From: Virgibacillus senegalensis
GTDB lineage: Bacteria; Bacillota; Bacilli; Bacillales; Amphibacillaceae
NCBI RefSeq assembly: GCF_000821245.2
Contig: NZ_LN611423.1
Location: forward strand, 372,096 to 436,095
Length of the DNA: 64,000 nucleotides
Direction: 5' to 3'
Shown here: positions 7,306 to 49,127 of the stretch, piece after piece
Layout: each line of letters starts with the position of its first letter
How positions within the stretch are numbered: position 1 is the first letter of the stretch
Position numbers and translations under genes: made by a program
The notes under the pieces: model-generated
Databases searched by the model: none
What the model saw: the letters and a program-made list of their open reading frames with translations, nothing else
Told to the model about the DNA's origin: nothing

Positions 7306-7779
7306 TTAGATGGCAAAGAAAAACCAGATAATCATTATCAACTGAATTACGACTTTGGCCACAGCTCCACCCAGAAATCCCATCAACGAACCTAGTGATG
7401 CCCTCCATGCTTGTCCAGTCGTTTTCTGCTGTATGACTTCCGTCACGAACACAGCGGCAAATGGAACAAGGATAATGCCGAATGGCGGAATAATAAAGGA
7501 ACCAATAATCACTGCAACAGCAGCAACTCTTTCTCCCCATTTTGAACCGCCATATTTTTTCACGAAATAACTATTGGCAATAATGTCTGACACAACCAGG
7601 ATGACAGTAAGCACCACCATCGCGAGCCAGAAAACCATCGATAATTGGCCGTCCATAAAGAAAAAGTACAGCAAAAAGCCAATCCATAGCATTAAAGGAG
7701 CTGGGATCAACGGAAAAATGATACCGGCAAAGCTTAATAGAAAACAGGCTGCGATCAACAGCCAAATGATGATATCCAT
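7306..7779 (-). CDS. DUF456-family membrane protein
   Basis: A 157-aa protein rich in hydrophobic segments with the DUF456 signature: an early PLIPAP turn, SDIIANSYFVKKYGGSKWG, then GSFIIPPFGIILVPF. The ATG at 7779 is selected because GGGAGGT lies 7 nt upstream; 10 extra codons to 7809 lack a site. B. subtilis YqgC is of the same type. Function unknown, cytoplasmic membrane. Confidence 0.78.
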   Translation of the reverse strand: MDIIIWLLIAACFLLSFAGIIFPLIPAPLMLWIGFLLYFFFMDGQLSMVFWLAMVVLTVILVVSDIIANSYFVKKYGGSKWGERVAAVAVIIGSFIIPPFGIILVPFAAVFVTEVIQQKTTGQAWRASLGSLMGFLGGAVAKVVIQLIMIIWFFFAI

Positions 7780-11741: not shown

Positions 11742-11785
11742 CGCAATTTTGGCAATGGTTTATCCCAAGATATACGTATCCCGTC

Positions 11786-11875
11786 TCCACTTTCCTACGC
11801 TGGTGCTAACCAGTTCAGGTTCAAAGGGACCAAGGTTTATTCCTTATCTCAGCCATAAAGGCGCCCCTAGTGGAC
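11786..11875 (-). ncRNA. TPP riboswitch (THI box)
   Basis: Read on the minus strand it has ACTAGGGGCGCC, GGCTGAGATAAG, CCCTTTGAACCTGAACTGG and TTAGCACCAGCGTAGGAAAGT, the canonical TPP aptamer. It controls tenA-thiD-thiM-thiE together with the terminator at 11707-11741. Confidence 0.97.
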
Positions 11876-11898
11876 TTCCAAAATATTTAACTACTTTT

Positions 11899-42811: not shown

Positions 42812-42925
42812 ATGTTCGCATTGGTGCGCTTTTTGTTGATTGGAGCTTTTTCACTCTCAGCTATTTGCCTTTTCACCTATCAGGGAATTGAAATCTTCCA
42901 ATCCATTCGAACGTTTTTTAAATAA
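42812..42925 (+). CDS. 37-aa hydrophobic microprotein
   Basis: ATG is preceded by AAAGGAGGTTGAACAGCG, a strong site. The product is one membrane helix (RFLLIGAFSLSAICLFTY) with a basic end (RTFFK). It follows the 113-aa membrane gene by 20 bp, so the pair is a mini-operon ending at the terminator at 43000. Function unknown. Confidence 0.65.
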   Translation: MFALVRFLLIGAFSLSAICLFTYQGIEIFQSIRTFFK

Positions 42926-42999
42926 GCTAGTTTCCTAGCCCGGATATTTGCTGTCAAATCAGGCTCTTCCACCATGATTTTCCAGCAGTAAGGAAAATA

Positions 43000-43038
43000 A
43001 AAAGCAGAGGTCATTCAAACAACGGCCTCTGCTTTTTT
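43000..43038 (+). terminator. Rho-independent terminator
   Basis: aaaagcagagg pairs with cctctgctttt and is followed by a T run. Confidence 0.85.
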
Positions 43039-43090
43039 TGGTACGAAAAGCCTATTTCTGTACCAAGGAAGAGAAATTCTCTCTTCGCTA

Positions 43091-43120
43091 TTGCAAATGA
43101 TTCTCATTATCATTTATAAT
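43091..43120 (+). promoter_or_regulatory. SigA promoter overlapped by a Fur box
   Basis: TTGCAA (43091-43096), 18 bp, TATAAT (43115-43120). The spacer contains TGATTCTCATTATCA (43098-43112), which matches the Bacillus 7-1-7 Fur box at 12 of 14 informative positions. Iron-replete Fur would block this promoter. Confidence 0.65.
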
Positions 43121-43126
43121 AACTTA

Positions 43127-43281
43127 TGTAATACACTTTCCTATGCTTACTTTTGCAGAAGATAAAGGTACTCCTATCTTACGTGATGGCTTTTGTTACC
43201 CCCCAAAAATAATAAATGTTTCATCCCCCGGAGTTCCTTGATCTTCCTTTAAGACTGTCATTAGACAGTCTTTTTTTTTTG
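43127..43281 (+). ncRNA. Candidate Fur-controlled small RNA (FsrA-like)
   Basis: From the Fur-boxed promoter to the terminator AAGACTGTC-ATTA-GACAGTCTT followed by a ten-T run (43251-43281) there are about 155 nt. The only ORF (ATG near 43143) lacks a ribosome site. The RNA has single-stranded C tracts (CCCCCC at 43199-43204, CCCCC near 43225), the feature FsrA of B. subtilis uses to pair with ribosome sites. Existence of the transcript is inferred. Confidence 0.5.
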
Positions 43282-43402
43282 AACCTACTCGCCAGACAAT
43301 CTTATTTATCATTCATGTTCCTTTAATCGATAATCCGCCTTATTTCAGACATAAGGAACGCTTGTAAATCATACGATCCACTAAATAGAAACATCGTTTT
43401 GT

Positions 43403-43417
43403 TTAAAATCATTATAA
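43403..43417. promoter_or_regulatory. PerR box upstream of katA
   Basis: TTAAAATCATTATAA matches the PerR consensus TTATAATnATTATAA at 13 of 14 defined positions. It ends 8 bp before the katA -35 element. Confidence 0.75.
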
Positions 43418-43424
43418 TTAAACA

Positions 43425-43452
43425 TTGATTTTTAGTAAATTTATATTATAAT
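43425..43452 (+). promoter_or_regulatory. SigA promoter of katA
   Basis: TTGATT (43425-43430), 16 bp, TATAAT (43447-43452). Confidence 0.7.
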
Positions 43453-43488
43453 TGAACATGTACTAAGTTAAGGAGAGGTGTTAAATAG

Positions 43489-44946
43489 ATGGCAAATGAA
43501 AAAAGATACTTAACAAATGCTGCCGGTGCCCCAGTCGGTGATAACCAAAATTCCATGACTGCCGGCCACCGTGGTCCGACGTTGATTCAAGACGTACACC
43601 TGCTTGAAAAGCTGGCTCATTTCAACCGAGAAAGAGTACCAGAACGCGTCGTTCACGCAAAAGGTGCCGGAGCTCATGGCTACTTTGAAGTTACAAACGA
43701 CTTATCTAAATATACAAAAGCTGCTTTCCTACAAGAAGTCGGTAAAAAAACTCCAATGTTCATCCGTTTTTCTACTGTTGCCGGTGAATTGGGTTCAGCC
43801 GACACAGTCCGTGACCCACGAGGATTTGCGGTGAAGTTTTATACAGAAGAAGGAAACTATGACTTAGTGGGTAACAACACCCCTGTCTTTTTCATCCGTG
43901 ATGCAATTAAGTTTCCGGACTTCATTCACACACAAAAACGCAATCCGGCAACACACTTAAAAGATCCGAATGCTGTATGGGATTTCTGGTCTCTATCACC
44001 TGAATCACTTCATCAGGTGACTATTCTGCATTCCGATCGTGGTATTCCTGCAACTTATCGCCATATGGACGGATTTGGAAGCCATACATTCAAATGGACC
44101 AATGCGGACGGCGAATCTGTTTGGGTGAAATACCACTTCAAAACAAATCAAGGCATTAAAAACCTTGATCCAGCATTGGCAACAAAAATTGCTGGCGAAA
44201 ATCCGGATTACCATACAGAAGATCTATATAACGCTATCGATTCCGGCGACTTCCCTGAGTGGACAGTATATGTCCAAATCATGCCGATCGAGGATGCCAA
44301 TACTTACCGTTTCGATCCTTTCGATGTCACCAAAGTATGGTCCCATAAGGACTATCCATTGATCGAGCTAGGAAAAATGGTATTGAACAAAAATCCAGAA
44401 AACTACTTCGCTGAAGTAGAACAGGCTACGTTCTCTCCAGGAACACTTGTACCTGGCATTGAACCATCTCCTGACAAAATGTTGCAAGGTCGTCTATTTG
44501 CCTATGCGGACGCACATCGTTATCGCGTCGGTGCCAACCACCAGGCATTGCCGATCAACCGTGCTCATGTTGAAGTAAACAACTATCAGCGCGACGGTCA
44601 AATGCGTTTTGACGGAAATGGCGGCGGTTCCCTTAACTATGAGCCAAACAGCTTTGGCGGACCGCAAGAAGCTTCTGAAACCAAGCCGGCAGCTTATGAA
44701 GTAACCGGAATGGCTGACAGTGTAGCTTATGATCATAACGATCACTATACTCAAGCCGGTGACCTATACCGCTTGATGAGCGAAGAAGAGCGTACTCGTC
44801 TTGTTGAAAATATCGTAGAAGGCATGAAGCCTGTCGAAAAAGACGAAATCAAATTACGTCAAATCGAGCACTTTTTCAAAGCTGACCCTGAGTATGGAAC
44901 TCGTGTAGCTGAAGGTCTTGGTTTGTCAGTACCTGTGAAAGCATAA
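43489..44946 (+). CDS. katA: Vegetative-type catalase KatA
   Basis: A 485-aa monofunctional heme catalase. Distal histidine H56 in [12 protein letters not shown], then [39 protein letters not shown], and the proximal tyrosine region [17 protein letters not shown]. Small-subunit clade 3 length. AAGGAGAGG lies before ATG. It removes hydrogen peroxide; the upstream PerR box predicts peroxide induction. Terminator at 44982. Confidence 0.97.
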
Positions 44947-46660: not shown

Positions 46661-46828
46661 GCCAGAGCATTCTTTTGTTTTTGACTAGCTGTTTGCTCCT
46701 CAACATGTTTAAGCATTGATAATCCCTGCTAATCAAGTTTATTGTGATTTGAGTAAAATTACCAACTCTCCTATTATTGTTAATGTGTTTTGAAAAAACT
46801 GAAAATAACGCAAAAGGAGGCACAAACT

Positions 46829-47350
46829 ATTAACAGTTCAAGCGTAACTGCGACCGTAGAAGCAGCTGGCAAACTGACTTTCAGCAAACCAGCTGTTGAA
46901 GATGGCGCAGCAATGTGGGAATTGGTAAACAATTCGACGCTCGATCAAAACTCTGTATATAAATATATAATGATGAGTGAGTTTTTTGCTGAGACTTGCG
47001 TAGTTGCCAAAGAGAATGATAAATTAGTTGGCTTCGTTACTGCATTTATTCCTCCAGAGCGTCAAGACGTCGTGTTCGTATGGCAGATCGGTGTTTCTTC
47101 TGATCAAAGAGGAAAGGGAGTCGCTTCTCGACTGCTCCAAGAATTAATCAGCCGTGATGCCTGCCGGGATGTACACTTTATCGAGGCAACTGTAACCCCT
47201 TCCAATGAGGCGTCTCAATCCTTATTCCGCGGCCTGGCCAGGAAGTACGATACAGACTGCCAAGTGGAGGAGTTGTTTCCAGAAGAGCTGTTTCCTGAAG
47301 ACGATCATGAAGAAGAGTTAAACTTCCGAATCGGACCAATCAATAAGTAA
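46829..47350 (+). CDS. ectA: L-2,4-diaminobutyrate acetyltransferase, AUU start
   Basis: A 173-aa GNAT enzyme for the second step of ectoine synthesis. LTFSKPAVEDGAAMWELVNNSTLDQNSVYKYIMM, then FVWQIGVSSDQRGKGVASRLLQEL with the acetyl-CoA loop QRGKGVA, are typical EctA. The strong ribosome site AAAAGGAGG (46812-46820) sits 8 nt before ATT 46829. The in-frame TTG at 46790 lies upstream of that site and has none of its own, so AUU appears to be the real start. First gene of ectABC. Confidence 0.93.
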   Translation: MNSSSVTATVEAAGKLTFSKPAVEDGAAMWELVNNSTLDQNSVYKYIMMSEFFAETCVVAKENDKLVGFVTAFIPPERQDVVFVWQIGVSSDQRGKGVASRLLQELISRDACRDVHFIEATVTPSNEASQSLFRGLARKYDTDCQVEELFPEELFPEDDHEEELNFRIGPINK

Positions 47351-47409
47351 AGACAGCTAGTGCCCGGAACACTCGTGACGAATTTACTAAAACCAAGGAG
47401 GAAATGTAA

Positions 47410-48678
47410 ATGAGCCAAACGGATTTATCAATTTTCGACAAACTGGAATCAGAGGTAAGAAGCTATGTGCGAAGCTTCCCAGCTGTTTTTAATAAGGCAA
47501 AGGGTGAAAAAATCTGGGATGAAGACGGAAACGAATACTTAGACTTTTTCTCAGGAGCCGGCGCCCTCAATTACGGCCATAATGACAACAAAATGAAAGC
47601 AAAGTTGATTGATTATATTATGGAAGATGGTATCACCCATTCCTTAGATAAAGCTTCTTCAGCCAAAGCCTCATTTCTTACTAAGTTTCACGATGTCATC
47701 TTGAAACCGCGTAACCTGGACTACAAAGTAATGTTCCCCGGACCAACAGGAACGAACACAGTCGAAAGTGCGCTGAAGCTGGCAAGAAAAGTTACCGGCC
47801 GTACGGATGTAATCAGCTTTACAAATGGCTTTCACGGAATGACGATAGGATCGCTGTCCGTTACAGGAAATTCCTTTAAACGGAAAGGTGCAGGGGTACC
47901 ACTGCAAAATGTGGTTACCATGCCATATGATAATTTTGTAAACGATGACTTGGATTATCTTGAGCGATTCCTGGAGGAAGCTGGCAGTGGTGTTGCCATT
48001 CCAGCAGCGATGATTTTGGAAACAGTTCAAGGCGAGGGCGGAATCAACACGGCCCGTTTTGAATGGTTAAAACGTGTGGAAGATATTTGTAAGCGCTGGG
48101 ACATCCTGCTGATTATTGACGATGTGCAAGCAGGGGTAGGCAGAACCGGAACGTTCTTCAGTTTTGAACCAGCAGGCATCAAACCGGATATCGTTTGTCT
48201 TTCTAAGTCGCTAAGCGGCTACGGACTTCCGTTTGCCGTCACCCTTATCCGCCCTGATTTGGATATTTGGGAGCCGGGGGAGCATAACGGAACTTTTCGC
48301 GGAAACAACCATGCTTTTGTCACCGCAACAGCTGCATTGGAGTACTGGGAAGATGCAGACTTTGAAAAGAACGTCCAGGTGAAGGCCAAAATGGTGCGGA
48401 ACTTCCTGGATAACATGGTTGAGAAATACCCGGAATTAAAAGGAGAAGTACGCGGAAGAGGACTGATGATAGGCATTGCGTCAGAAGTGGATGGACTCGC
48501 AAATAAAGTTGCGGCAAAAGCTTTTGAAAACGGCTTGATCATGGAAACTTCCGGTCCAAAGGATGAAGTTTTCAAGCTCTTCCCACCGCTGACAATTAAA
48601 GAAGAAAACTTGGAAAAAGGTTTTGCCATCATTGAAGAAAGCATTAAAAACCTGGTAAAAGAACCAGTTGCCAACTAA
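47410..48678 (+). CDS. ectB: Diaminobutyrate-2-oxoglutarate transaminase
   Basis: A 422-aa class III aminotransferase making L-2,4-diaminobutyrate from aspartate semialdehyde, the first step of ectoine synthesis. [32 protein letters not shown] with D237, and the PLP lysine K266 in [13 protein letters not shown] are visible. AAGGAGG is directly upstream. Lies 59 bp after ectA. Confidence 0.97.
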
Positions 48679-48740
48679 CCGCTAAACGCCACAAAAGGGA
48701 TCTATGAATCGAACAATTAAAATCTGGGAGGAAAGTAAAA

Positions 48741-49127
48741 ATGAAGGTTGTCGCTTTAAAAGATGTAATAGGAACGGAACATGACGTAGACGGAGGCAAT
48801 TGGGTCAGCAGACGCCTGATCAAAAAGGACGATGGCATGGGATACTCTGTCAACGATACGATAATCAAGGCTGGTACAGAAACACACATTTGGTACAAAA
48901 ACCATTTAGAAGCTGTTTACTGCATTGAAGGAGAAGGCGAAGTCGTTACCCTGAAGGATAATAAAGTATGGCCAATTAAGAAAGATGAACTATATGCACT
49001 TGATGAACACGATGAACATCTGCTTCGCGCCCGGACAGATATGCGAATGGTATGTGTGTTCAATCCGCCGCTTTCCGGAAAAGAAGTCCATGATGAAAAT
49101 GGAGTTTACCCTGTAGATGAGGATTAA
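48741..49127 (+). CDS. ectC: Ectoine synthase
   Basis: A 128-aa cupin that cyclises N-gamma-acetyldiaminobutyrate to ectoine. The start [38 protein letters not shown] with cupin ligands, [13 protein letters not shown] and [19 protein letters not shown] are diagnostic. GGGAGG lies before ATG. No ectD hydroxylase or lysC follows; a terminator ends the operon. Confidence 0.97.

Follow-up and report, generated by a model that had tools for sequence, protein, structure and literature searches.

Iron-sparing small RNAs such as RyhB, PrrF, FsrA and IsrR seem to have arisen repeatedly without a common sequence. FsrA of Bacillus subtilis is described, in the portion of PMC8464778 that was available, as a Fur-repressed, C-rich RNA of 84 nt with reported effects on sdhCAB, citB and qcrA; its one pairing proven in vivo, with gltAB, did not involve the C-rich regions. 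A 2025 paper says, in an available passage that carries no sequences, that FsrA homologues are widespread in Bacilli, Staphylococci and Listeria (PMC12871923). IsrR of Staphylococcus contains three C-rich regions, and loss of a C-rich region abolished reporter control, according to the accessible part of PMC9410917. Extracts of two further papers name katA of S. aureus as a direct IsrR target (PMC12607789) and place the predicted IsrR-katA contact ahead of the ribosome site, within the 5' UTR (PMC11257911). In the retrievable parts of the literature on small RNAs in Gracilibacillus, on Virgibacillus and Fur, on Terribacillus, and on iron-sparing sRNAs and katA, no RNA like the one described below was found; the accessible text of the Terribacillus paper reports no sRNA genes beyond four identified with Rfam (PMC9366552).

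The locus considered here lies upstream of a catalase gene in the window, meaning the whole 64,000-nucleotide stretch of DNA that was analysed, and its features are collected in Table 1. Comparison of 27 loci, with a covarying structure and an invariant C loop, supports a real and conserved RNA. Conservation, covariation and target complementarity likewise support a Fur-controlled, C-rich RNA aimed at the ribosome sites of iron enzymes. We assign a probability of about 0.8 to the reading that this is a trans-acting, Fur-repressed iron-sparing sRNA that would act like FsrA and IsrR. We class it as a new family within a known kind of RNA, matching no Rfam family and set apart from IsrR by description only. 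The result adds a further, probably iron-sparing family with members in the window's genus as well as in Gracilibacillus and Aquibacillus; its loop is exactly complementary to the aconitase ribosome site, and this complementarity is conserved.

Table 1. Features of the RNA locus and of the adjoining katA gene, in window positions
Feature	Position	Strand	Basis or remark
Hairpin and T run upstream of the RNA promoter	about 43001..43039	+	read by eye; weak terminator-like Rfam matches overlap
Sigma-A type promoter, TTGCAA-18-TATAAT	43091..43120	+	10/12 consensus letters; block kept in relatives
Fur box, two overlapping 7-1-7 matches in the promoter spacer	43092..43112	+	motif match
Predicted small RNA, about 155 nt	43127..43281	+	start and end predicted from promoter and terminator
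Outer long-range stem, 5' arm	43158..43174	+	fold prediction, covariation
Inner hairpin, UUUGUUA-loop-UAAUAAA	43192..43216	+	C6 in loop; GUUACCCCC is the proposed seed
C6 tract, in the inner-hairpin loop	43199..43204	+	sequence and predicted fold
C5 tract, unpaired in an internal loop of the predicted fold	43225..43229	+	variable among relatives
Outer long-range stem, 3' arm	43230..43246	+	fold prediction, covariation
Intrinsic terminator	43251..43281	+	9-bp stem at 43251-43272, ten T; crude scan: 24/27 loci
katA's own promoter, TTGATT-16-TATAAT, with PerR-like box TTAAAATCATTATAA	43403..43452	+	motif match
katA, haem catalase	43489..44946	+	best NCBIfam match is to a catalase model (E 2e-162) but falls short of its cut-off

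The transcription unit and its catalase neighbour

A promoter with a Fur-like spacer and a perfect 9-bp hairpin followed by ten Ts were the core of the original prediction, and both are confirmed at the positions in Table 1; the span between them agrees with its estimate of about 155 nt, longer than the 84 nt of FsrA. The better Fur-box match, TGATTCTCATTATCA at 43098-43112, agrees with TGATAATNATTATCA in 13 of 15 letters, and a second, overlapping match begins at 43092 with 3 mismatches. With up to three mismatches allowed, the window holds 14 Fur-box matches against 4.8 expected; with up to two it holds three, of which those at 7326 and 19155 fall within ORFs and the one in the RNA promoter falls outside ORFs. 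A motif scan, with the window's own locus counted, finds a Fur box that matches 13 or more of 15 letters before the RNA in 27 of 27 loci.

Two of the terminator's ten T pair with AA at the foot of the stem. A scan of 1.4 kb returned one terminator against a shuffle mean of 1.0 and five promoter-like sites against 3.2 expected, without excess in either case, and since these counts are close to chance, consensus matching by itself is weak. What raises the RNA unit above chance is its fold (z -5.6) together with the recurrence of the entire unit in 27 loci. The hairpin upstream of the promoter would shield the RNA gene from upstream transcription, and with this hairpin and T run on one side and the katA promoter on the other, the stretch forms its own transcription unit.

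The position beside katA, also part of the original prediction, turns out to be more than incidental. katA lies immediately downstream on the same strand in 27/27 loci, while the upstream neighbour (longest frame, judged by eye) varies, being antiporter-like in the window's genus, g1 (5 loci), ABC-ATPase-like in 20 loci and another gene in g23 (2 loci). The catalase gene was also seen in 11 of the 12 named stretches; in the remaining one, L076, the stretch stops 115 bases from the hairpin. This constancy despite three upstream contexts favours reading the unit as a cis element of katA, that is, a leader under Fur control in which the terminator would serve as an attenuator with conditional read-through. 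However, a separate katA promoter stands between the terminator and katA in all 27 loci, each time with a PerR-like box that matches 12 or more of 15 letters, and similar promoter and PerR-like sequences also precede katA genes that have no RNA. The loop, moreover, fits the ribosome sites of aconitase and qcrA and not that of katA, which ranks 420 of 869 for loop pairing and offers no convincing loop target. A leader function is accordingly judged very unlikely, and a trans-acting RNA with its own promoter and terminator is preferred. Pairing with the katA leader computed by duplexfold gave long broken duplexes that were uninterpretable and was set aside.

A functional tie to the adjacent catalase is possible, if on balance doubtful. 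At low iron the RNA would lower the katA product in addition to aconitase and the Rieske protein, through a contact outside the katA ribosome site, and Fur and PerR would converge at the locus. Such a tie, if true, would account for the fact that all 27 loci found adjoin katA despite the changing neighbour on the other side. The arrangement raises the question of why a probable iron-sparing sRNA family is locked to a catalase gene.

Several other elements were seen around this locus or its counterparts. Ahead of the RNA gene, at 42812-42925 (+), lies a 37-codon ORF with a good ribosome site (MFALVRFLLIGAFSLSAICLFTYQGIEIFQSIRTFFK) and a close counterpart before katA in L084, a relative that has no RNA; its product is a conserved small protein, membrane-like by eye. 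In loci L092-L101 of genus g16, which have no RNA, a conserved ORF of about 24 codons (MWKTNL...) with a strong ribosome site lies about 260 bases before katA in 10/10 loci and is a different conserved small gene in a position equivalent to that of the RNA. Three ORFs at 46790-49127 (+) are ectABC-like by eye (ectoine synthesis), consistent with a salt-tolerant organism. The window's only gathering-level Rfam match is a TPP riboswitch at 11775-11878 (-).

Fold, reading frames and distribution among relatives

The C6 and C5 tracts named in the original prediction are both present, and they differ in their conservation and predicted setting (Table 1). The pattern TT(T)ACCCCC is found in 27/27 loci, and the hairpin of the relatives shows GUU(U)ACCCCC in its loop despite little sequence identity elsewhere; many Gracilibacillus members carry three C runs. 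At full length, terminator included, the predicted RNA reaches its z of -5.6 against dinucleotide shuffles, a value that owes part of its size to the terminator, and the cores of seven relatives without terminator give a weaker z of -1.9 to -3.5. Changes in one arm of the outer stem are matched in the other: the window's pair of arms, AGAAGAU.AAGG and CCUU.AUCUUC, corresponds to GAAACAUCC and GGAUGUUUC in Aquibacillus kalidii and to GAAAACACUUU and AGAGUGUUUUC in genus g23. Two-sided changes occur in five of the nine modelled outer-stem pairs.

Counts of covariation were made on an alignment of 27 rows fitted to the covariance model (A5). There, 92.5% of cells are paired, two-sided changes occur in 8 of 17 pairs, and 28 two-sided cells compare with 8.5 +/- 2.3 in shuffles; the covariation score is 0.250 against 0.159 +/- 0.012 for shuffles and 0.055-0.120 for slid structures. 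The measure of "further pair types" on A5 shows no excess over shuffles, 403 of 500 of which reach the observed value. A trimmed MAFFT seed of ten sequences (A3), not fitted to structure and itself the source from which the structure was read, gives 87.6% paired cells and 21 two-sided cells vs 8.9, although an offset of about three columns persists for L007 (outer stem) and for the window's genus (inner stem). It replaced a first MAFFT alignment that included the terminators (A2) and was misaligned on its 3' side. RNAalifold on A5 returns the outer stem only (7 pairs, -2.6 kcal/mol), and the inner stem is based on single-sequence folds and pair counts. In L061, from Gracilibacillus dipsosauri, an additional hairpin of about 50 nt follows the inner hairpin and precedes the outer 3' arm.

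The transcript might alternatively code for a small peptide, as the window's RNA contains a 32-codon ATG frame starting at 43143 and some of the Gracilibacillus loci share a frame, MKHSLYTYLLLPPINKS. A Shine-Dalgarno sequence was looked for ahead of the 32-codon frame and none was found, and by a crude motif test the longest frame lacks one in 25 of the 27 loci. These longest frames run from 20 to 61 codons, their starts differ between genera, and they break even inside the window's genus, whereas the paired positions covary as RNA. A coding function is scarcely credible on this evidence. The original view that there is no credible ORF has thus held up, with no frame conserved over the 27 loci, and the non-coding, trans-acting reading stands.

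The covariance model built from the ten sequences of A3 (R1) was run over 146 genomes of the window's family and gave 28 matches. Credible loci number 27, the window's own included, and fall in 6 of 46 genera: 16 in g4, 5 in g1, 2 each in g17 and g23, and 1 each in g12 and g146. Members include Gracilibacillus dipsosauri (G007, g4), Aquibacillus kalidii (G015, g12) and Aquibacillus koreensis (G020, g17). Match L065 was removed before the 27 rows were counted, as it has merely a 12/15 Fur-like match elsewhere, no katA and another context. A katA-like gene is present in 131 of the 146 family genomes, so the majority of katA-bearing genomes have no model match.

Reading of 20 further katA loci revealed one with a member of the family (L088, genus g33), which lies upstream of katA, was recognised by eye and stands outside the 27. 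It was missed by R1 and by R2, the model built from the 27 loci; because the models miss at least this one member, absence by model elsewhere in a genome is not proof. Another of these loci, L091 of the same genus, may hold a copy of the RNA gene in decay: before katA it keeps GTTACCCCCC, a GTGTTTCC arm and a hairpin with a T run, and there is no Fur box of at least 12/15 in that position. Five more katA upstream regions, that of G416 included, contain neither a Fur box nor ACCCCC. In G416 (L264, genus g4), katA is present with no RNA before it and no model match, and this genome, one of 17 examined in the Gracilibacillus group, is a loss within the genus.

Other searches gave a similar picture. 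BLAST of the unit against 60 relatives matched nearly its full length in three of the four genomes from the window's genus, with 87-88% identity; beyond the genus it returned short matches, mostly of the promoter, many of which resemble other Fur-boxed promoters before ORFs and some of which, once read, led to true relatives. A strict hairpin pattern found 12 stretches, 10 from Gracilibacillus and 2 from Aquibacillus, in a collection of 84,980 species that may omit the window's own relatives. With Infernal's strict filters, R2 found no match outside the window's family among 348 genomes of the class. A relaxed R2 search of 19 genomes, one of them (G148) outside the family, gave 15 weak matches in 10 genomes, the best with E 0.13 and none credible; the context of seven was examined and showed no Fur box (best 10/15). 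On a tree of AcnA and SdhC (FastTree, modest support at deep nodes), the RNA occurs in two lineages, G033 and g149 are nested among RNA carriers, and G329 is the sister of g1.

Predicted targets and proposed mechanism

Pairing of the C tract with ribosome sites, proposed in the original prediction, was assessed on 850 kb of the own genome, where 869 ORF starts, predicted mechanically, were ranked by duplex energy with the loop segment. Aconitase AcnA (AAAGGGGGTAACATAAAG) ranks 5 and the Rieske protein qcrA ranks 6, in line with that proposal, and sdhC would rank 5. The 850-kb stretches were chosen to include qcrA, which was known earlier from a pattern search, so the rank of qcrA is not blind and that of aconitase is. 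No iron enzymes are recognisable by eye at ranks 1-4, where rank 1 is siderophore-permease-like and rank 2 HisF-like. The NCBIfam names of aconitase (E 1e-11, first 60 residues used) and of the Rieske protein (E 6e-17) are both below the curated cut-off. GGGGGTAAC, the aconitase ribosome site, is an exact complement of the loop and is found at only one of the 869 starts, that of aconitase. Shuffling the flanks around C6 gave a better rank for aconitase in 1 of 20 trials and for qcrA in 6 of 20. Over the whole own genome, GGGGGTAA close before ATG occurs 9 times against 15 for the reversed pattern, showing no enrichment, and the Rieske Fe-S protein is among the matches that start long frames.

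The comparison of target sites covers 30 genomes, 16 of the 27 that bear the RNA and 14 others, picked before the sites were seen. In all 14 RNA-less genomes the region upstream of katA was read and contains no RNA, four of these regions being among the five additional ones described above, and R1 and R2 find no credible copy elsewhere. The exact aconitase site is present in 16/16 genomes with the RNA against 2/14 without it, or 6/6 against 2/9 by genus. It is fixed in carriers while the surrounding bases vary, and the letters after its G run, which are unneeded for a Shine-Dalgarno sequence, nevertheless stay fixed. The complement of the loop at this site, GGGGGUAAC, covers the ribosome-binding core, which fits direct occlusion. 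The qcrA site GGGGGGTAA occurs in 16/16 genomes with the RNA against 4/11 without, three RNA-less genomes giving no qcrA match.

At sdhC, GGGGGGTA is found in 15/16 genomes with the RNA and 10/14 without, and sdhC was rejected as a discriminating target because the G6 site is also frequent in genomes without the RNA. Genera that have no such RNA also conserve GGGGGGTAACAC or a near variant in their sdhC leaders (e.g. L247, L239, L249), a hint that a different C-rich sRNA may be at work in them. For aconitase, the RNA-less G329 and G033 keep the exact site and g149 has lost it. Since the RNA-bearing genomes are related and these two RNA-less genomes keep the site, there are few independent contrasts, and the association between RNA and aconitase site is suggestive, resting on few independent events. 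Conservation of the aconitase site inside the RNA-bearing set is firm.

These observations are consistent with a simple mechanism. With iron present, Fur would occupy the box in the promoter spacer and block transcription; when iron falls, the RNA would be transcribed and end at its own terminator. The outer stem would then present the hairpin with its loop exposing GUUACCCCC(C), an arrangement that the comparison of relatives supports. The pairing partner of this loop would be GGGGG(G)UAA(C) in the ribosome sites of mRNAs for iron-rich enzymes, first those of aconitase and the Rieske protein qcrA and probably also that of sdhC, and the pairing would stop their translation and save iron. The family may offer a clean case for how iron-sparing RNAs find targets beyond the Shine-Dalgarno core.

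Relation to described iron-sparing RNAs

The label "FsrA-type", under which the RNA was originally predicted, suits its probable mode of action and fails for family membership, as the Rfam model, the length and the fold all differ. A covariance search with the Rfam FsrA model (RF02273), the check put forward alongside that label, gave no gathering-level match in the window and none up to E 10 in 42900-43500; the best match in the whole genome reaches 13.5 bits, elsewhere, against a cut-off of 80. No Rfam family of any kind matches at gathering level at the RNA locus or in the loci of seven relatives.

A highly diverged true FsrA or IsrR, in place of an independent family, is nonetheless worth weighing, since the regulator motif and a C-rich segment for binding are shared and the targets (acnA/citB, qcrA, sdhC) overlap. 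IsrR, too, is described in the available extracts as having C-rich loops and binding katA mRNA, and the accessible passage of PMC12871923 states that FsrA homologues exist across Bacilli, Staphylococci and Listeria. Yet the Rfam FsrA model finds nothing above noise, FsrA has 84 nt, and the printed part of its Rfam consensus, CCCUCUAUCAGAUCAAG, is unlike the conserved core, while descent from IsrR is at odds with a neighbour that is katA and not arlR and pgpB. Common descent with either RNA is improbable, and an independent family that would act in the same manner is the preferred reading.

Compared with the proteobacterial RyhB and PrrF, the RNA shares Fur control, iron sparing and an equal physiological logic; those RNAs are Hfq-dependent according to the accessible part of PMC9410917, whereas here no Rfam family is matched. 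FsrA of B. subtilis is Fur-regulated, its C-rich segment is proposed to pair with ribosome sites, and there is overlap between the targets reported for it (citB, sdhCAB and qcrA) and those predicted here, as far as the available portion of PMC8464778 describes them. Its 84 nt contrast with about 155 nt here, where the Rfam FsrA model finds no match, the C tract sits in a hairpin loop inside a long-range stem, and the gene adjoins katA. FsrA also works with FbpA, FbpB and FbpC, which are chaperone-like proteins. Staphylococcal IsrR is likewise Fur-repressed, has 174 nt with C-rich regions in loops, and counts acnA and katA among its targets, in the accessible text of PMC9410917. Two of its three C-rich regions lie in hairpin loops. 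Its gene lies between arlR and pgpB, whereas the RNA described here is flanked by katA and an antiporter-like or ABC-ATPase-like gene (by eye). Compared by description only, IsrR has two Fur boxes and three stem-loops, H1-H3, whereas the present RNA has one hairpin nested in a long stem.
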